A DNA stretch of 27,206 nucleotides from a virus, in the IMG/VR virus record IMGVR_UViG_3300005941_000034, positions 1 through 27,206 of that record. The stretch is one strand, 5' to 3'. Shown one piece after another: positions 1 through 18,605 of this stretch. The notes under the pieces were generated by a model, which saw nothing but the letters and a program-made list of their open reading frames with translations, was not told where the DNA came from and made no database searches. Position 1 is the first letter of the stretch, and every line of letters starts with the position of its first letter. A program made the translations under genes and the position numbers.

Positions 1-318
1 TTACTTCTTACCTTTCATAGCTTGAGTACCAAAGAATGCAGCAACAATACCAGCAACAGCTACAAAGTATGTTGGTGCCATATCGCCTAGTGTATCCTGT
101 GCCTGATCTAAACCAGCTAATGAAGCAAGAACAACCGCAAATGGATATAATAGTAATCCACCAAGAGCAAACCATGTCATATTACGCTGTGCATCTCGCA
201 TAGCATCCGCATCTTCTAACTCTTTGCGTTTAAACTCGAGGTACATCGCTTCTTCTTCTTTTGTTACATGCCCATCGCCATTAGTATCGGCTGGGTGAAA
301 TTTTTGTTCATCACTCAT
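1..318 (-). CDS. Small EF-hand protein with two membrane segments
   Basis: A 105-residue protein, complete in the window with its stop codon at the very left edge. The N-terminus has a textbook EF-hand calcium loop at residues 11-22 (D11, N13, D15, G16, T19, E22), followed by a charged helix (about 24-47) and two hydrophobic segments (about 48-70 and 81-100), ending in a Lys-rich tail. The ATG at 316-318 is preceded by AGGA on the minus strand (326-329), which overlaps the stop codon of the -1 extension of gp26, so its translation may be coupled to that reading frame. Similar small EF-hand plus membrane proteins occur in marine T4-like phages. Two membrane helices with short charged ends would also fit a class II holin, but that is only an inference; no function is assigned. 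Confidence 0.85.
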   Translation of the reverse strand: MSDEQKFHPADTNGDGHVTKEEEAMYLEFKRKELEDADAMRDAQRNMTWFALGGLLLYPFAVVLASLAGLDQAQDTLGDMAPTYFVAVAGIVAAFFGTQAMKGKK

Positions 319-327
319 TTTATATTC

Positions 328-525
328 CTATCTACTTAAATTTCTACGTTTAATCTCTTCGTTTTGTTCTTTTACATGCTCATTAAGTAAAGCAGTGTAT
401 ATCTGTCTTTCCCATGGTAGCATATCTTCAATCTCTGTTAACGAATATTGATGAAACTGCATCATAGCAAAATTCGTTTTATAAAAATTCTCCAGAGACT
501 CATGAGAAAGACAAATTAGAAAAAA
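328..525 (-). CDS. -1 frame extension of gp26 (gp51/GT-like tail), probably made by programmed frameshifting
   Basis: In the -1 frame relative to gp26 an open frame runs from the slippery heptamer (519-525) to a TAG at 328-330. It adds 63 residues after the shared Phe-Phe, giving a 297-residue fusion with gp26. The extension contains the segment SLTEIEDMLPWERQIYTALL followed by a charged helix ending in Arg-rich residues. The 'E-ML-PWER--Y---L' pattern is typical of T-domain or gp51-like tail assembly proteins. No convincing independent start exists: the first ATG in this frame (463-465) has no Shine-Dalgarno sequence nearby. The frame stops inside the Shine-Dalgarno sequence of the next gene. 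Known: lambda G/GT and many other phages make a tape-measure chaperone and its -1 extended form this way. Inferred: the same arrangement operates here. Confidence 0.75.
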   Translation of the reverse strand, partial: FFLICLSHESLENFYKTNFAMMQFHQYSLTEIEDMLPWERQIYTALLNEHVKEQNEEIKRRNLSR

Positions 526-534
526 CTCTGGAGA
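489..534 (-). repeat. 9-bp perfect inverted repeat bracketing the frameshift site
   Basis: Plus-strand 489-497 (tctccagag) is the exact reverse complement of 526-534 (ctctggaga). On the gp26 mRNA the 5' arm lies directly before the slippery heptamer and the 3' arm 21 nt after it, giving a 9-bp stem with a 28-nt loop that contains the slippery site and the stop codon. An RNA role is inferred. Confidence 0.6.
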
Positions 535-1220
535 CCCTCTAGTTTAATTTCGTTTTTAATACCGCAATGTGTACAATTAAATTCCACATCGTGCCTTACC
601 ATAGGCATTTCGTTAAACAATTCAACAACGTCTTTAAATTGCTGTGAAGAGAAACTCTCTACAAAATCACGTAACTCTGCTGGCGATTGCTCATTAGCAG
701 GATAAACATCATCCTTGTCGTAGATAGAATCGATACATGAGATAATCATATCTACTGTTGTATCGTATTGACTCTTTCCTTCCGAAACGCTCTCTGCAGC
801 ACCTTTTACAGTTGGGTACTTTAGGATAACGCCAACCTCTTCTGACAGTTGTGTCTTTAAATTTCTTTTTACTTCGCCTTGCACTTCAACATCGTCAAGG
901 TTTACTGTGTATTCGTTTTTACCATCACAACCTTTACACTTAAATAATAGATCTGATCCTTCACCTACAGAACGTGATCTAATTTTTAAGAAGATATATT
1001 CAAAGTCAAAAGAAGCCATTCCCATGGAGTCTACTGATTTAAACGTACATTCGTCGATTAGGTCTCTTACAGCCATGATCATTTGCTTCTGATCTTTACT
1101 TTCGACCGCTATCAATAATGCCTTTTCTTCTCTAACCGTGTATGGTCTATATTCAATCTCTTTACCTGACGATGGTACTGTCAGGACATATTTGGGTGTC
1201 CCCAGTTTAGGTAATGCCAT
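516..1220 (-). CDS. gp26: Baseplate hub assembly protein gp26-like
   Basis: A 234-residue protein of the T4 gp26 (T4 baseplate protein) family; T4 gp26 has 208 residues. Two CxxC pairs are visible (C95/C98 and C216/C219), each followed by a Lys/Asn-rich turn, so the two halves could together hold one zinc ion. T4 gp26 is needed for hub assembly but is not clearly part of the finished baseplate, consistent with a chaperone role. The ATG at 1218-1220 has a good Shine-Dalgarno sequence (GAGGTG, 1232-1237). The gene follows the gp54-like gene after a 43-nt gap. Its last sense codons are TTT TTC immediately before TAA, forming a perfect -1 slippery heptamer; the -1 frame continues into a gp51-like extension. 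The family call is strong; the zinc site is inferred. Confidence 0.8.
   Translation of the reverse strand: MALPKLGTPKYVLTVPSSGKEIEYRPYTVREEKALLIAVESKDQKQMIMAVRDLIDECTFKSVDSMGMASFDFEYIFLKIRSRSVGEGSDLLFKCKGCDGKNEYTVNLDDVEVQGEVKRNLKTQLSEEVGVILKYPTVKGAAESVSEGKSQYDTTVDMIISCIDSIYDKDDVYPANEQSPAELRDFVESFSSQQFKDVVELFNEMPMVRHDVEFNCTHCGIKNEIKLEGLQSFF
519..525 (-). promoter_or_regulatory. -1 ribosomal frameshift slippery site T_TTT_TTC before gp26 stop
   Basis: On the minus strand the gp26 frame reads AGT TTT TTC TAA, so TTTTTTC fits X XXY YYZ with both tRNAs able to re-pair after a -1 slip. The zero-frame stop follows directly and the -1 frame stays open for 63 codons. Confidence 0.75.
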
Positions 1221-10934: not shown

Positions 10935-13900
10935 ATGTCAAACAAAGAAATTACAAGAGTTCCTGAGATACTACCAGATAATTTGGCAGCAGAGTCTGCA
11001 GAATTTGTCACATTCCTTAAGAAGTATTACGAATGGATGGGTCAGAAAGGCAACCCTTCCGAAGGTATTGACCTAGCATTAAAGCAGAGAACCCTTGACA
11101 ATGCTGTCGACTTCTATTTAAGTTCTCTGTACAGCGAGCTTGGGTATGGGTTTGTTCTTAATAACCAAGCCAACCAAAAGAATATAATCGATAATCTTGC
11201 TGAAATTTATTCGGCAAAGGGTTCTTTACAGTCCATCAAGGTTATGTTCAGAGCGTTATTTGGTGAAGAGATTGACATCAAATTACCCAAAGAACAAATT
11301 CTCAAATCATCTTCTGGTAATTGGCTCAGCGAATATTCGGTAATTGTAGAATTAAATGAAGGAGATTTATTTACAACTGTTGGTAAATATGTAGAAGTAG
11401 AAACTTCATTCCCCAATACCCCTAAACAAACATTTGATGTCGAAGTTAAGCGGATAGAAAAGCGAGAGGGTTCTAACGTTTACGAAGTCTACGTTTCTCG
11501 ATATTTTGCTGGCTTCTTCTATTTTGATAGTGTTATCTATTACGGAGATGTTAAGGCAACGTTAAAGTCTTCAATGTCTCAAATTTTAAATATCGAGGAT
11601 AGCGGTACAGGGTTTAGAGTAGGCGAAACCTTTGTTATTGCAGATTTTGTAAGAGAATCTGGATTTAATGATCTAGCGAGATTACCAAAATCCTTTAGAA
11701 GAAAAGTCCCCTCTCTATCTAAAACAAAAAGAATTGACCTTGAGGATGTCGATGTAGACGTTCGTTCTGATGGTACTATAACACGAATTATAAAACTTGA
11801 GGATACGATTACCACCCAAGTGATTCGTGGGTCTACCATGATTACTCGTGTAGAAAGAAACGGTAAAGTGAAAGAATTCACTTCCACTATCGATGGTATC
11901 CCTACACCAAATCTAGCAATCAACTGGGATGAAATCTCTAAGGCTCTTATCGAGATCGCTTCTTTTGGCGGTACTAATGGTAGCATCCCTCTCGAATTAT
12001 ACAGTTTCCTGCAAGAAGTTCCCCAGCCAACATATAGTGACGGCACTACAGACCCATTATTCGATACGAATGTTGGGGCAACTCAATATAAGAGAGGGGA
12101 CTGGGATAGAGATGGCGAAATCTCTATTGACGATTCAATGGCGATACTTAGGTATGTATTTGACGTTGATCCTGGACTTAATCCTGCCACAGAAGCTGTA
12201 GAAGAAATCAGATATCAAAGGATAACTGAGGTTATATCTGAGTGGAACGCATACGCAACCCGAGAGAATATGGGGGCTGAAAAAACCTTTGCGTTGCGTA
12301 GTCCAGCTACATCTGGTGACGCATGGGATCCTACTTATTACCTTCCGGTAGACGTGGGATCTGACCTTGTAAGATTATCTGTTGGCGCTGACCCAGCTGA
12401 ATTTACAAGCGCATTATTGCAGTTAAATGCGGAAGCTGGTAGCACTGGCTTCAAAAAAGGGGACATCGATCAAGATGGAGAAATTGATACCGATGACCTA
12501 TTGGCATTAGTTACATATCAAGACCCTTCACTTAGAAATGCTAATCCATTACCAGCTCAGTTAGACTCGACTAAGATTGCTTGGATACAGCAATACCTTG
12601 ATACTGGTTCGGTAGAAGATCTTGCGCTTATGGTTTCTGCCATGGCATACAAGTATAATGCTGATAAAAGGAACGACCTACACGAATTTTTACTACAAGT
12701 AGATGGCGATTATGCTACTGGTCGTGTTCGTGGAGATATTGATCAGTCTGGTCTTATTACGTTAGATGATGTCTCTATTTTATTGAGACGTGCTGCTGGT
12801 TACTATGATGTTCCTAGCGGTGGCATTCAGTCTGTAAACGTAAATACTCTAGTCGGTGGCTATGACTCTTCTGAAGGAAGTATTACTTTAACTAATACTA
12901 TAAATGGTTCTGGTGCCGATATAGCTCCTAATGTTAGGGATGGTGTTATAACTAAATTCAACCTTACCAATCCAGGATTTGGTATTAGGGAAGCTGTTGC
13001 GATTCTTTTAAAACCCAGAGACGCAATTATCGAAAATATACCTGATGATTGGAGATTTGTAGATAACGCATTTGCTGATGGTTCTGGAGTCTATGAAGTA
13101 AAGTTAGATATTGTCGACGGTAAGATAAATAACTTATATTCCCCAGGAATAATGTACAACTTCCCTGAAGACCCTATTGATTCAGTTCAGGCTTCATACG
13201 ACAATGCTACCATTGCACCTATCCTACAAAATAGCGGTATTATTGGACGTACCAATAATGCGCCTGCAGATGGTAGTAGAGCTGAAGGTGTTTATGAAAT
13301 CACTTCTAGCGATTATACCACAAATAGTGCTAGTGGTACAGGTGCTGAATTTAAAATTAGAGTACGTGAAGGTGGCGGTGCGGGTGTTAATGCTTCTGTT
13401 TCTTATGACGAAGCTAACACCTTAGACGCAAGTAGGACTGAAGGTGTTTATGATATTTTCTCTGGATATACTACTGACGGAAGTGGTACTGGCGCAGGAT
13501 TTAGAGTTAGTGTATTTGATACTGGTCGTACGATAATTTTTACTCTCCGTCAAGGTACTGGCTATGTGGTCGGAGAAACGATAACCATACCTGATTCTTT
13601 ATTAGGCAGTGGCGGTGCAGCTGCACTAACTTTTGATATTGGTTCTATAAAAACTTACGATACCCTGATTTCTGTTGTAGATGGCGGTACTGGCTATTTG
13701 GCTGGCGAAACATTCACAGTAGCCGACTCAAATTTAGGTGGCGGTGGGGCACCTGCTCTAACATTTGCAATTGCCGATATTGCCGACTCCAATACTATAA
13801 CAGGGTTTAACATAATAAGCGGTGGTACAGGGTACGACATTGCTGCAGCGACAGTTGAGGTTACTGATGGAACTGGAGAAGGAATAATCTTCCCCACTAA

Positions 13901-16900
13901 CCCTGTTGGGGTTAGGAATGGAGTTATTGATAAGATTTCTCTCGTGTCTGGGGGTAGTGGATATGAATTAGCCACTACTACAATATCTGTAACAAGGAAT
14001 AGTGTTCCTATCACAGGCGCAACTTTGACCCCAGTTATAAACTCCTCTGGTGCTATAACAGATATCACCATTGAAGATGGGGGCGAAGGGTATAACCCAG
14101 ATATTGATATCATTACAATTGCTTCTTCTGGTAGCGGTCAAGGTGCGAATGCTAGTGAGTTCCAGATAATAGATGGCGTTGTTGACGCAATTTCAATATC
14201 TAATAATGGGGGTGGCTATAGTAGCAGAGCAACTGCAGTAATCAAGAGAGGTAACTCTAGTTCTGATCCTTCAATAGAAGCTATAGTTCAAGATGGAGTT
14301 CTCACTACAGTTACTGTAAATAAGCAAGGAATAAATTATAATCCAGCATCAACAGTATCAAATACTTTATCAAGAGTTGAGCCATCATTACAAGCGGTGT
14401 TAGATTCTAATGGTTCTATCACTGATATCATATCTGTAGGAGATAATTCGGATAGATCTTTATCTGGTTGGCAATCAGCCACTGTCTCAATTACAGAAGA
14501 ACATGTATTCAAAATGACCATAGGGCAGCATTTAGGTAATCTGAATTATGTGTTTTTTGAATCTACAGACAGAAACGGTGATGTTGACGATACCACGGAT
14601 CCAACGATTAATATATCTTTGGGCGATACAGTAAAGTTTGACTTGGATTATGCCGATACAAATACCGTTAATGAATTTTATATTAAGACCTCGCAGGCTT
14701 CAGGCACTACAGATGCCATAACAGATTCTACGGTTACTGGTCGAGGGACAGAAACTGTAACATTTACTCCGACAAGTGTTGGCACGTACTACTATCAATC
14801 TTCTGTGCACAGTAATATGAGTGGAGAAATAGTAGTATCTAACAATGGAGCATCATTCTCGGCTGATATAGATGACGGTAAAATATCTCAGTTTTTGAAA
14901 ATTGGCGGTGGTTCTAATTACGGCAACCCCATTGTTACACTAACAGGCACTAGATTAAATTCAAATATTACCATAACTACAACGCCCGATTATGTTGAGT
15001 GGATCGATGAGGTTATCGGGGAGCCGTTGTTAGGTAGTGAATACAATCCGTTATTGATTGACGGTCCAGGAACTGGTGCTAATGCTCGTGTTACGAAAGT
15101 CGGTAATAATGGACAACTTCAAGAACTTAAATTAACTTCTTTTGGTTTTGATTATCCTGATACATTCACCACTACTATCTCCCCCGAGAATCCAGCAGGA
15201 ACTACTGCTAAAGTTACTTTAGCGTCTAGTGTTGTTGGTGTAACTTCTCCGAAATATGTTGACCGTAAAGGTTTCTTATCGGATATTATCAAGATACAAG
15301 ATAATGACTTGTATCAAGAGTTCTCGTATGTTATTCAGACTGGTGTTGATTTTGACATATTTGAAGATCTGATTAAGAAATCTGTCCACCCAGCAGGTAT
15401 GAAGATATTTGGTGAGCAAAATATCAACGAGAGTTTTGCTTTACAAGTTACTCAGTTTGACTATACCTCCTCTCTGTATAATAAATTAGTTTTTGACAGA
15501 ACAGATAACGACGAACTAAATCCAGGTGGTGATGGTACTTCTACCCGCAATGATGATGTCGATACCTACCATTTAGACAAGGATATGGGACTTTTATCTG
15601 GTTATGAGGAAGAAACTGATCTAGCAGATGAAGATAATGATACTTATTTAATAATAAAAAATCTAACAGTCCCTGAGTATGCAGAAATTGCTTATGTTGA
15701 ACATGATAAAGAAGATTACCATTTCGATAAAGATATGGGTCTTACGTCTGGATACGCAGAGATAACTGACTTCGCCGACAAAGACGACGATACCTACCAT
15801 TTAGACAAGGATATGGGTCTTACGTCTGGATACGCAGAGATAACTGATCTAGCAGATGCAGATAATGACACTTATCACTTTGATAAAGATATGGGTCTAG
15901 ATTCTGAATATTATGAAGAAACTACGTTGGCAGATGAAGATAATGATACCTACCATTTAGACAAAGACATGGGTATCTTATCTGGCTATGAGGAAATAAC
16001 TGACCTTTCTGACGATGAGAATAGGTATCACTTCGACAAAGACATGGGTATCTTATCTGGTTATGAGGAAATAACTGACTTTAAAGATAAAGATACTGAC
16101 ACTTACCATTTCGATAAAGATATGGGGATTGATTCTGGTCTTGAGGAAGTAATAGATTTATCGGGTGATGATGCCCATACCTATCACTTTGACAAGGATA
16201 TGGGGATTGATTCTGGGCATGAGGAAATAATAGATTTATCGGACGATGATGTTGACACTTATCGCTTCGATAAAGATATGGGTCTTTTATCTGGTTATGA
16301 GGAAATAACTGATCTAGCAGATGGAGATAATGACACTTATCACTTCGATAAAGATATGGGTCTTTTATCTGGTTATTACGAAGAAACCGATCTAGCTGAC
16401 AATGAGAATAGGTATCACTTCGATAAAGACATGGGGATTGATTCTGGTCTTGAGGAAGTAACTGACCTAGCGGATGAAGATAATGATACCTACCATTTAG
16501 ACAAGGATATGGGTCTTTTGTCTGGTCATGAGGAAGAAACTGATCTAGCAGATGAAGACACTGACACCTACCATTTAGACAAGGATATGGGGCTAGAGTC
16601 TGATTATTATGAAGAAACTGACCTTAAAGATAAAGACACTGACACCTACCATTTCGACAAAGACATGGGGCTTTTATCTGGTTATGAGGAAATAACTGAT
16701 CTAGCAGATGAAGACTTACATATCTTTTCATTCGGCAAACAGTTTCCAAGATCAGATGACCTTGAAGAATTGACTGCAGACGCAAGTGACGAACGTCAAC
16801 CTTTCGATATAGGTAAAGCACTAATTGATACACCCGACCCTGACGATACTCAATTTAGCTTCGATCACAGTAAAAGTGGCACCGCATTTGACGATGGCAC

Positions 16901-18605
16901 TCAAGAAATCTTTTCTTTGGTTAGCGTGATTAATGAAAAATTCTTTAATGACGATGATTCTCAAGAATTTGCTTACGTTACCCATACTAAAGAACTCGTT
17001 GCATACGAGAAAGACATGGGGCTTTTATCTGGTTATGAGGAAATAACTGATTTATCGGATGAAGATGTCGTCAGAAAATTGTTTGAAAAAGCCACGATTA
17101 ATGAGACTTTAGAACACAATGTATCTGAATCTCACGGATTATTATTTTCAAAGCCAAGATCGTCTTCTATTAGCGATGTTAATGATGCTATAACTATTTC
17201 TAGGAATAAGTATCTTCAGGATACTGCAACTGTAGACGATGTATTCTCTACAATAGATGAAGACATCTATTCGTTTACAAAAGATTTATCGGATCTATTA
17301 GATCCACCTGTTACAGACTCAGATAGTTACAGCTTATCTAAAGCACTTTTAGACACTTTAATTTTTGGTGTTTCGGAAGATTGCGCAAAGGGTATATTCA
17401 AGTCTAGAATAACTTCTTCAACTGATTTTGAGTCAAACCCAGATGTCCAAAGAAATGCCATATCAAAGCCCATATTGGACTTAACAGACTTCAAAGATAA
17501 AGACGTTATCGGGTCTAAGGATAGCACTAAAAGTTTAAGCGATCTTTTACAATTCGGTGCTTCTGATGATGGATCTATTTTCTCCTTTATAAAGAGTCCG
17601 CAATCTTCAGTAGGTACTTCGTCCGATTTAGACTCGAGGTATTCTTTTGAACATCCTGAAGAAGAGACCACCGCTATATCCTCTGTAGAGGGGGGTCCTA
17701 TTGAAATATATGGCGTTTTTGATATGCAGCATTCATATTATAACTCAGTACCCACACATAGCTTGAGATGGATAGAACCAGCCGCTATTGACAATGTACA
17801 TGGCAGGAATGGTGGGAATAGAATTGTAGATTTTAACGATCTTGCTTTCCAATTTAATTCTAACAAAGATCGAGATGACACAATAATACAAAGTGGATCA
17901 TCTACGTTTAAATATAGGTTCTATGGAAAATCACATAATGATGATGATGATAGAACAGTTCATGTCAATTCTATGATTAAAGCCTATATAGGCGACACAA
18001 TAAAATTAGAATATAATACTTACGGTTTCAGTTCAGCATCTCCAGCTGGGGGCTTTTGGATAAAAACTTCTCCAACAGCAGATAAGGTTACAGATATTGC
18101 TACAGATGATGGTATAACTAATCAGGGCATGACTAGCCACAATGGTTTTGTTACAAATAATCAGACCCTAACTTGGGATACTACTAACGCAACACCTGGA
18201 AGATACTACTTAATTTCTGGCGGTGAGACTGTGTCCTCGAATGATCTTGATGGCGCTCATGATGATTCGTATTTTATAATAGATGTAGTCGATTACTCGA
18301 GCGAGCAAGAAGAACTAGGTTTTGATGTTGAGAAGCCACTTGAAGATACTATTATAGATATAAGTGATTTAGGCGTACAAGACTTGTTACTCGACAAACG
18401 TCTTGATGACTCTGCTCTTGCAACAGATATATATTCTGTTCAAGACAATGATATTTATAGTATAAATAAAGGTATCCAAGAATTCTCAATCACTAGTAGT
18501 GAAAGTGGGAGTTTAACGATAACTAAACCCTATGTTGAATTAGGATATATAGCAGGGGGTTTAGACTACGAGTATTGTTCCGATATTGCGGAACGACAAT
18601 TTTAA
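10935..18605 (+). CDS. gp7: Giant gp7-position baseplate wedge protein with dockerin-like, cupredoxin-like and tandem-repeat modules
   Basis: A 2556-residue protein between gp6 and gp8, the place of T4 gene 7 (1032 residues). The conserved wedge part is visible at the N-terminus (about 1-150: 'FVTFLKKYYEWMGQKGNP', 'AEIYSAKGSLQSIKVMFRAL') and again around 1437-1490 ('GFLSDIIKIQDNDLYQEF', 'KKSVHPAGMKIFGE'), so the core is split by large insertions. Between them lie three dockerin-like calcium loops (D389, D510, D601), Gly-rich 'GTGY' beta repeats (about 640-1180) and a cupredoxin-like module (about 1188-1302). After the second core motif comes an acidic 26-residue tandem array (about 1543-1927), diverged repeats, and a second cupredoxin-like module (about 2341-2452). 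The outer modules are likely exposed on the baseplate rim. The frame is intact throughout. Orthology to T4 gp7 rests mainly on position. Confidence 0.85.
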   Translation: MSNKEITRVPEILPDNLAAESAEFVTFLKKYYEWMGQKGNPSEGIDLALKQRTLDNAVDFYLSSLYSELGYGFVLNNQANQKNIIDNLAEIYSAKGSLQSIKVMFRALFGEEIDIKLPKEQILKSSSGNWLSEYSVIVELNEGDLFTTVGKYVEVETSFPNTPKQTFDVEVKRIEKREGSNVYEVYVSRYFAGFFYFDSVIYYGDVKATLKSSMSQILNIEDSGTGFRVGETFVIADFVRESGFNDLARLPKSFRRKVPSLSKTKRIDLEDVDVDVRSDGTITRIIKLEDTITTQVIRGSTMITRVERNGKVKEFTSTIDGIPTPNLAINWDEISKALIEIASFGGTNGSIPLELYSFLQEVPQPTYSDGTTDPLFDTNVGATQYKRGDWDRDGEISIDDSMAILRYVFDVDPGLNPATEAVEEIRYQRITEVISEWNAYATRENMGAEKTFALRSPATSGDAWDPTYYLPVDVGSDLVRLSVGADPAEFTSALLQLNAEAGSTGFKKGDIDQDGEIDTDDLLALVTYQDPSLRNANPLPAQLDSTKIAWIQQYLDTGSVEDLALMVSAMAYKYNADKRNDLHEFLLQVDGDYATGRVRGDIDQSGLITLDDVSILLRRAAGYYDVPSGGIQSVNVNTLVGGYDSSEGSITLTNTINGSGADIAPNVRDGVITKFNLTNPGFGIREAVAILLKPRDAIIENIPDDWRFVDNAFADGSGVYEVKLDIVDGKINNLYSPGIMYNFPEDPIDSVQASYDNATIAPILQNSGIIGRTNNAPADGSRAEGVYEITSSDYTTNSASGTGAEFKIRVREGGGAGVNASVSYDEANTLDASRTEGVYDIFSGYTTDGSGTGAGFRVSVFDTGRTIIFTLRQGTGYVVGETITIPDSLLGSGGAAALTFDIGSIKTYDTLISVVDGGTGYLAGETFTVADSNLGGGGAPALTFAIADIADSNTITGFNIISGGTGYDIAAATVEVTDGTGEGIIFPTNPVGVRNGVIDKISLVSGGSGYELATTTISVTRNSVPITGATLTPVINSSGAITDITIEDGGEGYNPDIDIITIASSGSGQGANASEFQIIDGVVDAISISNNGGGYSSRATAVIKRGNSSSDPSIEAIVQDGVLTTVTVNKQGINYNPASTVSNTLSRVEPSLQAVLDSNGSITDIISVGDNSDRSLSGWQSATVSITEEHVFKMTIGQHLGNLNYVFFESTDRNGDVDDTTDPTINISLGDTVKFDLDYADTNTVNEFYIKTSQASGTTDAITDSTVTGRGTETVTFTPTSVGTYYYQSSVHSNMSGEIVVSNNGASFSADIDDGKISQFLKIGGGSNYGNPIVTLTGTRLNSNITITTTPDYVEWIDEVIGEPLLGSEYNPLLIDGPGTGANARVTKVGNNGQLQELKLTSFGFDYPDTFTTTISPENPAGTTAKVTLASSVVGVTSPKYVDRKGFLSDIIKIQDNDLYQEFSYVIQTGVDFDIFEDLIKKSVHPAGMKIFGEQNINESFALQVTQFDYTSSLYNKLVFDRTDNDELNPGGDGTSTRNDDVDTYHLDKDMGLLSGYEEETDLADEDNDTYLIIKNLTVPEYAEIAYVEHDKEDYHFDKDMGLTSGYAEITDFADKDDDTYHLDKDMGLTSGYAEITDLADADNDTYHFDKDMGLDSEYYEETTLADEDNDTYHLDKDMGILSGYEEITDLSDDENRYHFDKDMGILSGYEEITDFKDKDTDTYHFDKDMGIDSGLEEVIDLSGDDAHTYHFDKDMGIDSGHEEIIDLSDDDVDTYRFDKDMGLLSGYEEITDLADGDNDTYHFDKDMGLLSGYYEETDLADNENRYHFDKDMGIDSGLEEVTDLADEDNDTYHLDKDMGLLSGHEEETDLADEDTDTYHLDKDMGLESDYYEETDLKDKDTDTYHFDKDMGLLSGYEEITDLADEDLHIFSFGKQFPRSDDLEELTADASDERQPFDIGKALIDTPDPDDTQFSFDHSKSGTAFDDGTQEIFSLVSVINEKFFNDDDSQEFAYVTHTKELVAYEKDMGLLSGYEEITDLSDEDVVRKLFEKATINETLEHNVSESHGLLFSKPRSSSISDVNDAITISRNKYLQDTATVDDVFSTIDEDIYSFTKDLSDLLDPPVTDSDSYSLSKALLDTLIFGVSEDCAKGIFKSRITSSTDFESNPDVQRNAISKPILDLTDFKDKDVIGSKDSTKSLSDLLQFGASDDGSIFSFIKSPQSSVGTSSDLDSRYSFEHPEEETTAISSVEGGPIEIYGVFDMQHSYYNSVPTHSLRWIEPAAIDNVHGRNGGNRIVDFNDLAFQFNSNKDRDDTIIQSGSSTFKYRFYGKSHNDDDDRTVHVNSMIKAYIGDTIKLEYNTYGFSSASPAGGFWIKTSPTADKVTDIATDDGITNQGMTSHNGFVTNNQTLTWDTTNATPGRYYLISGGETVSSNDLDGAHDDSYFIIDVVDYSSEQEELGFDVEKPLEDTIIDISDLGVQDLLLDKRLDDSALATDIYSVQDNDIYSINKGIQEFSITSSESGSLTITKPYVELGYIAGGLDYEYCSDIAERQF
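12099..12770 (+). other. Three dockerin-like calcium-binding loops within the giant protein
   Basis: Loops DWDRDGEISIDD (residues 389-400), DIDQDGEIDTDD (510-521) and DIDQSGLITLDD (601-612) each match the dockerin/EF-type D-x-D/N-x-D/S-G-x-I-x-x-x-D pattern and are each followed by a short hydrophobic helix. They are preceded by a conserved K/R-G and spaced about 120 and 90 residues apart. Confidence 0.75.
13276..14240 (+). repeat. Diverged glycine-rich beta repeats in the giant protein
   Basis: Protein-level repeats. Two 'EGVY(E/D)I...YTT...GTGA-F' units (from about 13279 and 13438) are followed by two 'GTGY--GET(I/F)T-(P/A)DS' units and several 'GG(T/S)GY' units. DNA similarity is low, so these are old duplications. 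Similar 'GSGY' repeats occur in the gp8 insertion. Confidence 0.6.
14497..14842 (+). other. Cupredoxin-like module 1 in the giant protein, copper cysteine replaced
   Basis: Encodes about 115 residues ending GTYYYQSSVHSNMSGEIVV. This resembles the plastocyanin-type C-terminal loop with the His and Met in place but Ser where the copper-binding Cys would be. Confidence 0.5.
15561..16715 (+). repeat. Acidic 26-residue (about 78-nt) tandem repeat array
   Basis: Fourteen close copies and one degenerate copy of a unit with consensus DTYHFDKDMGLLSGYEEITD followed by an acidic Leu-Ala-Asp linker. Two units starting NRYH are 25 residues long. Copies are highly similar at DNA level, in places identical over 30 or more bases. 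The array is continuous with the giant ORF, and every unit length is a multiple of three. Composition is strongly acidic with one His per unit. Confidence 0.9.
17007..17068 (+). repeat. Displaced fifteenth copy of the acidic repeat
   Basis: A single unit (EKDMGLLSGYEEITDLSDED) about 290 nt after the array. Its DNA is identical to the last array unit over roughly 40 bases and is set among much more diverged repeats. Confidence 0.8.
17957..18293 (+). other. Cupredoxin-like module 2 in the giant protein
   Basis: Encodes a segment with the same pattern as module 1 (IGDTIKLEY, FWIKTSPTA, NATPGRYYL) but with a longer, ligand-free C-terminal loop. A second degenerate copy. Confidence 0.4.
18461..18468 (+). 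promoter_or_regulatory. Possible late promoter TATAAATA inside the 3' end of the giant gene
   Basis: Exact late core 161 nt upstream of the 190-residue gene's ATG, within coding sequence. It could start a transcript for the 190-residue protein and gp8. A minus-strand TATAAATA lies back to back at 18452-18459. Confidence 0.4.

Follow-up and report, generated by a model that had tools for sequence, protein, structure and literature searches.

A T4-like tail assembly chaperone gene that is very probably read in two ways through -1 slippage on a conserved T TTT TTN heptamer

Introduction

The IMG/VR virus record IMGVR_UViG_3300005941_000034, from a marine T4-like virus, carries on its minus strand a gene of the gp26 type whose last codons are CAG AGT TTT TTC TAA and behind which the -1 reading frame runs on well past the stop codon. 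The question raised by this locus is whether the gene yields one protein or two, the second being a longer form made by ribosomes which slip back by one base before the stop is reached. The stretch of DNA analyzed, 27,206 nt in length (positions 1 to 27,206 of the record), is referred to here as the window. An earlier note, made from the letters of this DNA, had proposed such a frameshift and had regarded the roles of gp26 and gp51 as unclear. The latter point is already settled for T4-like phages, where, by its title and the summaries of it, the work of Vladimirov et al. (2022) established which proteins are the tail assembly chaperones, and the record of phage Stupor, in which gp26 and gp51 bear the name "tape measure protein assembly chaperone", agrees.

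In the portions of the literature available to us, PMC10885494 describes the work of Vladimirov et al. (2022) as showing that, in place of a frameshift, some T4-like phages have a short gene and a separate long fused gene, PMC12846349 refers to it as the source for poly-T frameshift signals in the chaperones of T4-like phages, and the review PMC5009743 states that the G-T frameshift is widespread "except T4". The general idea, namely frameshifted chaperones with T4 having separate genes, is already in print. A comparative case of the present size, the Shine-Dalgarno (SD)-like element and the body and tail bookkeeping presented below were not found in the literature searched, in which Vladimirov et al. 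(2022) was represented by its title and summaries.

Results

The gp26 gene of the window (516..1220, minus strand) encodes a protein of 234 aa which was assigned as the short tail assembly chaperone (TAC-N, the "G" form) from PF12322, phrog_150, a structural model and an alignment with the HK97 chaperone. The match to PF12322 (T4_baseplate) had an E value of 5e-62 and a score of 210 bits against a curated cut-off of 24.5, and phrog_150 was matched over columns 5-232 with an E value of 2e-64. As the earlier note had claimed, the coordinates confirmed that the gp26 frame ends on the heptamer T TTT TTC (525-519, minus strand), directly followed by the TAA codon (518-516, minus strand) which non-slipping ribosomes would meet, and that the -1 frame, which reads CTA ATT TGT and onwards, stays open for 63 codons at 519-331 up to a TAG codon at 330-328. 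This -1 extension (TAC-C, a gp51-type tail; 328..519, minus strand) would, if joined to gp26, give a protein of 297 aa. It matched phrog_634 ("baseplate hub assembly catalyst") with an E value of 1e-24 as well as columns 236-282 of phrog_150, and the phrog_634 match was recovered directly from the window DNA at 340-528. The TAG codon sits within the sequence TAGGA, a little upstream of the ATG (318) of the next ORF (1..318, minus strand), which was called as 105 aa with an EF-hand-like motif and membrane segments. An SD-like sequence AGAGGG (535..540, minus strand) lies 9 nt 5' of the heptamer and is a probable frameshift stimulator, judged from the sequence and from a comparison over 134 junctions. 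Counting from the first base of the TAA, the first in-frame ATG of the -1 frame comes 53 nt later, already within the conserved tail, and no SD was found before it (0.1 kcal/mol, measured on the identical junction of locus L005), which bears out the claim that the extension lacks a start signal of its own.

Taken by itself the heptamer of the window is unremarkable, because, given Ser-Phe-Phe, NNT TTT is expected from codon choice alone at a frequency of about 0.4 (0.53 x 0.75). Judged at the level of sequence, it is the comparison among relatives which lifts the heptamer above chance. Relatives were fetched from a viral contig collection by the gp26 body and by the tail, and named isolates were added. 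The queries had 598 and 599 relatives, of which the best 80 each were used; divergent members are therefore under-sampled. A gp26 body was present in 179 loci, the window included, of which 174 had a scorable tail and stop codon and were scored; these 174 include the window and some contigs which were fetched twice. Removal of junctions at least 90% alike left 134 distinct junctions, which are still phylogenetically non-independent, and the site was found by searching the final 61 nt of gp26 for the heptamer pattern rather than by an alignment column. Five loci were left out of scoring. Three had a tail below threshold with the -1 frame open, L015 and L016 with T TTT TTA and L020 with T TTT TTC, while the contig of L087 stops 30 nt past the gp26 stop; the fifth was L022, Vibrio phage D531.

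The relatives were examined for a conserved slippery site and -1 ORF, the check suggested by the earlier note, and an in-frame T TTT TTN with the tail in the -1 frame was observed in 174/174 scored loci and 134/134 distinct junctions (best 80 per query together with the isolates). In all 174 the distance from the start of the heptamer to the stop is 7-34 nt, and no stop codon interrupts the -1 frame between heptamer and tail. When only loci chosen by the gp26 body (best 80) were considered, 79 were scorable and each of the 79 had both T TTT TTN and the -1 tail. A frame open for 60 codons from the heptamer was present in -1 in 133 of the 134 junctions and in +1 in none, and the extension measured 55-69 codons in all 134. 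In a set thinned to less than 50% identity, a rough correction for kinship based on ungapped identity, T TTT TTN was found in 51/51 members against 24.5 expected from synonymous codon choice.

It might be argued that a need for Phe-Phe in the protein is the sole reason why the heptamer persists and that the -1 tail is a decaying remnant; this explanation has in its favor the conserved GLxxFF at the C-terminus of gp26, and we give it a negligible probability since the synonymous sites are fixed. The T before TTT was seen in 134/134 junctions with 81.7 expected from codon usage, and the first Phe codon was TTT in 134/134 with 99.9 expected. Elsewhere in the gp26 genes NNT TTT occurred in 6 of 98 Phe-Phe pairs and in 104 of 198 pairs of Ser, Asn or Asp with Phe. 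The second codon of the site was TTC in 62, TTT in 59, TTA in 11 and TTG in 2 of the 134 junctions, so that a change of residue, here to Leu in 13/134, leaves the slippery run intact. The tails are themselves conserved and keep to the narrow length range given above in every junction, which also speaks against a remnant.

Among named isolates of the frameshift type, 16 of the 17 examined carried T TTT TTN with an open -1 frame: P-SSM2, P-TIM68, S-RIM32, MED4-213, Melnitz, phiM7, pf16, Yut3, S13, RL38J1, RHph_I1_18, OLIVR6, R11Z, V05, phiWae14 and SRB7757, the records of S13 and SRB7757 being marked unverified. R11Z, V05 and S13, which carry the frameshift form, are filed in Straboviridae. The earlier note had named relatives without the heptamer, or with a broken -1 frame, as observations that would count against slippage. 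This applies only marginally, to Vibrio phage D531 (L022 3576-3700), which has no heptamer and whose gp26 ends CTT TTC AAG TAA followed by TG; its -1 ORF is nevertheless open, and the junction shows a TAATG stop-start overlap, by which this ORF may be reached through reinitiation.

The D531 junction is one of the observations which would favor gp51 being a separate small gene, translated by termination-reinitiation after the gp26 stop, with the heptamer incidental. Between the heptamer and the tail core an in-frame ATG was present in 33/134 junctions and a GTG or TTG in 32/134; where the first start was an ATG (28 junctions), 19 place it 5 nt past the first base of the stop, and in P-SSM2, P-TIM68 and S-RIM32 gp51 is annotated as a separate gene from such an ATG. 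Against this, no ATG, GTG or TTG lies between the heptamer and the conserved tail in 69/134 junctions, the window among them, and 67 of these 69 also have no upstream ATG or GTG in the tail frame. SD pairing of -5 kcal/mol or stronger was found at 84 of 130 starts of gp26 itself and at only 1 of the 65 possible tail starts (0/28 where the first start is an ATG), the other 64 being weaker. The separately initiated ORF with a good ribosome site, which the earlier note had also listed as evidence against a frameshift, is therefore seen in only one of the 65 relatives with a possible start, a TTG in L171. Start codon scarcity and weak SDs together mean that a frameshift tail fits better than an independent gene, and as the heptamer is kept beyond synonymous choice and the long form of T4 is one chain, we consider reinitiation a quite improbable general explanation of these junctions.

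Stimulatory elements around the slippery site were then compared with those expected for ribosomal frameshifting. The mean anti-SD energy, taken across the 134 junctions, has a dip of -6.5 kcal/mol where the 8-mer begins 15 nt 5' of the heptamer; outside this dip, in the 45 nt preceding the heptamer, it stays above -1.8 kcal/mol. At the SD-like site 53/134 junctions had an energy within the bottom 5% of their synonymous resamplings (mean z -1.14), as compared with 12-18 at four control positions; the rank test has ties, so that the controls run at 12-18 of about 134 instead of 7. None of the listed SD-like motifs was present in 11/134 junctions. The SD-like sequence about 9 nt upstream of the heptamer is, on these sequence comparisons, conserved beyond what the protein would need. 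We take this element to be similar to the one in the dnaX frameshift signal.

A downstream hairpin was considered as a universal element and rejected, as it is strong only in subgroups. The mean z of the downstream fold over 134 junctions was -0.8 to -1.2 depending on window length, with controls at -0.5 and -0.24. For hairpins starting 2-13 nt past the heptamer the mean z was -0.66; there was none in 47/134 junctions and one below -8 kcal/mol in 24/134. Six of the 11 T TTT TTA loci (L115, L121, L129, L145, L159 and L163) have a hairpin of 8/8 pairs, G-U allowed, located 5 nt downstream and kept through changes on both sides, and the remaining five have 3-5 of the 8 pairs. It looks as though a stronger stimulator makes up for a weaker slip site in those six loci. 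For the window type, the hairpin is a weak one at -4.3 kcal/mol (L005; z -1.6 relative to synonymous variants), and shuffled sequences fold as well as the 64-nt stretch does (z -0.09). A 9-nt pairing across the window heptamer, noticed by eye, was set aside because the decoding ribosome would enclose its 5' arm.

The same elements bear on whether the -1 form could stem from RNA polymerase, slipping on the run of T, and not from the ribosome. The run numbers 6 T in the window and 7 or more in the TTTTTTT loci (59/134), which speaks for polymerase slippage. Six T is short for transcript slippage, however, the codon register is strictly kept, and the SD-like site and, in some groups, the hairpin 5 nt downstream fit ribosomal stimulators. 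We regard a transcriptional origin of the -1 form as very unlikely.

An AlphaFold2 model of the window gp26 had a pLDDT of 93. VIA-align placed 3fgx, 3klu and 2ob9, the last being the HK97 chaperone, at the top with Z scores of 7.4, 7.3 and 7.2 over residues 1-95, the next row having 3.0; the HK97 tail assembly chaperone 2ob9 itself was aligned to gp26 residues 1-90 (Z 7.2). Entries 3fgx and 3klu are presumably tail assembly chaperones as well. The fold match is moderate, below Z 8 and confined to the N-domain, and to this degree the resemblance to the HK97 chaperone supports the chaperone reading put forward earlier. Plain Foldseek gave no match for the gp26 model at E 0.001; among the 50 rows listed the HK97 chaperone 2ob9 had the highest probability, 0.60 (E 0.76). 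A model of a T4-type gp51 (pLDDT 82) gave no chaperone match, with a best Z of 3.6 among 8 rows, a null result which is not evidence against a chaperone fold. T4 gp51 is required for assembly yet absent from the particle, as stated in the available part of PMC3004832. Taken together, gp26 and its extended form would very likely have a chaperone role of the G/GT type.

The contig of the window ends before any position at which a tape measure gene would be expected. In L008, whose gp26 is 98% identical to that of the window, the 105-aa ORF is followed by an ORF of 1092 aa, a probable tape measure gene for which no PHROG or Pfam match was found. Twelve large downstream proteins were scanned, and 6 of these matched a PHROG tape-measure family at a threshold of E 0.01, mostly weakly (E 3e-12 to 0.009), while the other 6 had no such match; the large downstream protein of S-RIM32, one of the six with a match, was fitted better by an endolysin family than by its tape-measure family. 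The 742-aa protein encoded downstream in Melnitz gave no hit in the L005-L008 records. Rhizobium phage RHph_I1_18 has an annotated tape measure protein two genes past gp51. The EF-hand-like loop of the 105-aa ORF, DTNGDGHVT, belongs to a protein which is 94-100% identical in four near relatives. Elsewhere in the window, EF-hand or dockerin-like stretches were also seen by eye (GDWDRDGEISIDDSMAILRY) in a 2556-aa ORF at 10935-18605 on the plus strand, which contains about 13 tandem copies of a 78-nt (26-residue) unit like YHFDKDMGLLSGYEEITDLADEDTDT at 15717-16714. A Pfam scan of this ORF gave only a sub-threshold cupredoxin match.

In T4, gp26 and gp51 are encoded by divergent genes and both match PF12322 (E 9e-64 and 4e-52, respectively). 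T4 gp51 spans phrog_150 columns 13-280 and also matches phrog_634, while T4 gp26 stops at column 235. The profile comparison of the -1 tail with T4 gp51 which had been proposed gave, besides the phrog_634 match, an hhalign match of the tail profile to gp51 residues 208-246 (E 2e-6, prob 90), and the body profile matched residues 63-200 (E 9e-11, prob 97). The description of the extension as "gp51-like" is thus correct for the C-terminus of gp51 and for that end only, since T4 gp51 consists of a gp26-like body plus the tail. Searches of whole records found one PF12322 body and one tail each in the complete genomes of P-SSM2, Melnitz and pf16; the window and a 120-kb contig identical to it in gp26, both of which are possibly fragments, gave the same count, and no second full-length PF12322 gene carrying the tail was found in any of these five. 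T4 has two PF12322 bodies (gp26 and gp51) and a single tail, which lies within gp51. These counts imply that T4 gp26 corresponds to the unshifted product and T4 gp51 to the shifted one.

No slippery heptamer was found in 12 T4-type gp26 genes, several of them close to T4. In a body tree made without L198, T4-type gp26 and gp51 were split from the frameshift-type bodies plus D531 with support of 100/97, where the root was placed at the midpoint and does not alone prove direction. The gp51 bodies formed one clade (100/99) and T4-type gp26 did not; gp26 of Cronobacter phage leN (L181) was placed beside gp51 (93/74), and gp26 of leN, gp26 of L186 and D531 were on long branches. In leN, a Pseudotevenvirus, gp51 and gp26 share a strand, lie in tandem and overlap slightly (L181 2501-3794), whereas those of T4 are divergent. 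The most economical reading makes the frameshift the older state, later replaced by two genes in the ancestors of T4. T4 would then make both products from two genes, which could have arisen most simply by duplication and fusion after loss of the slip site. On balance we favor frameshifting, through an SD-like element, T TTT TTN and in some groups a hairpin, as the ancestral and general route to the long chaperone of the T4 superfamily, with the T4-type gene pair as a later exception.

Discussion

The gene at this locus is very probably a T4-like tail assembly chaperone which is read in two ways through -1 slippage. Slippage, its rate and the chaperone action are inferred, and we propose the following course. 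Most ribosomes would stop at the TAA and give gp26, the short chaperone, while a minority would slip back by one base on T TTT TTC, aided by the SD-like site 9 nt upstream, and would add the 63-residue gp51-type tail to give the long form of 297 aa. If lambda G and GT are a guide, the tape measure protein would be coated by a large number of short forms and by few long ones, the latter bringing in the tail-tube protein through their added tail, and both forms would then depart.

If this is true, many cyanophage, marine and rhizobial "gp51" entries are frameshift tails and not genes, and public records annotate such a tail as an independent gene. It would also mean that a programmed frameshift and a separate gene pair replace each other in these phages, and the defined signal makes the rate of shifting measurable. 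In the excerpt available, Sullivan et al. (2010) report that cyanophage and marine vibriophage gp51 lacks the first ~200 aa, with no explanation given there. The gp51 of cyanophages and other T4-like phages would be short by about 200 residues because gp51 there is the frameshift tail.

The T4 pair belongs to the same PF12322 family, with gp26 ending where the short form ends and gp51 made of a body and the same tail, but it differs in being two divergent genes and in the absence of the heptamer from all 12 T4-type gp26 genes. The gp26/gp51 pairs of cyanophages (P-SSM2 and others) have the same heptamer and the same -1 tail; they differ in being annotated as two separate genes, some with an ATG near the stop. 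In lambda the tape measure gene lies downstream of G/GT, and the lambda slippery sequence differs from T TTT TTN. According to the part of PMC5009743 available to us, lambda G/GT is alike in having a short chaperone and a -1 extended form near the 3' end of the gene, and the likeness drawn in the earlier note is supported by the checks made here. Unlike lambda G/GT, the PF12322 body exceeds 200 aa and has Cys pairs in many members. A further parallel comes from another phage family, Vandenendeviridae, in which, as described in the available portion of PMC12846349, the Adele-type chaperone uses a -1 frameshift at a poly-T site with a GTTTTT motif.
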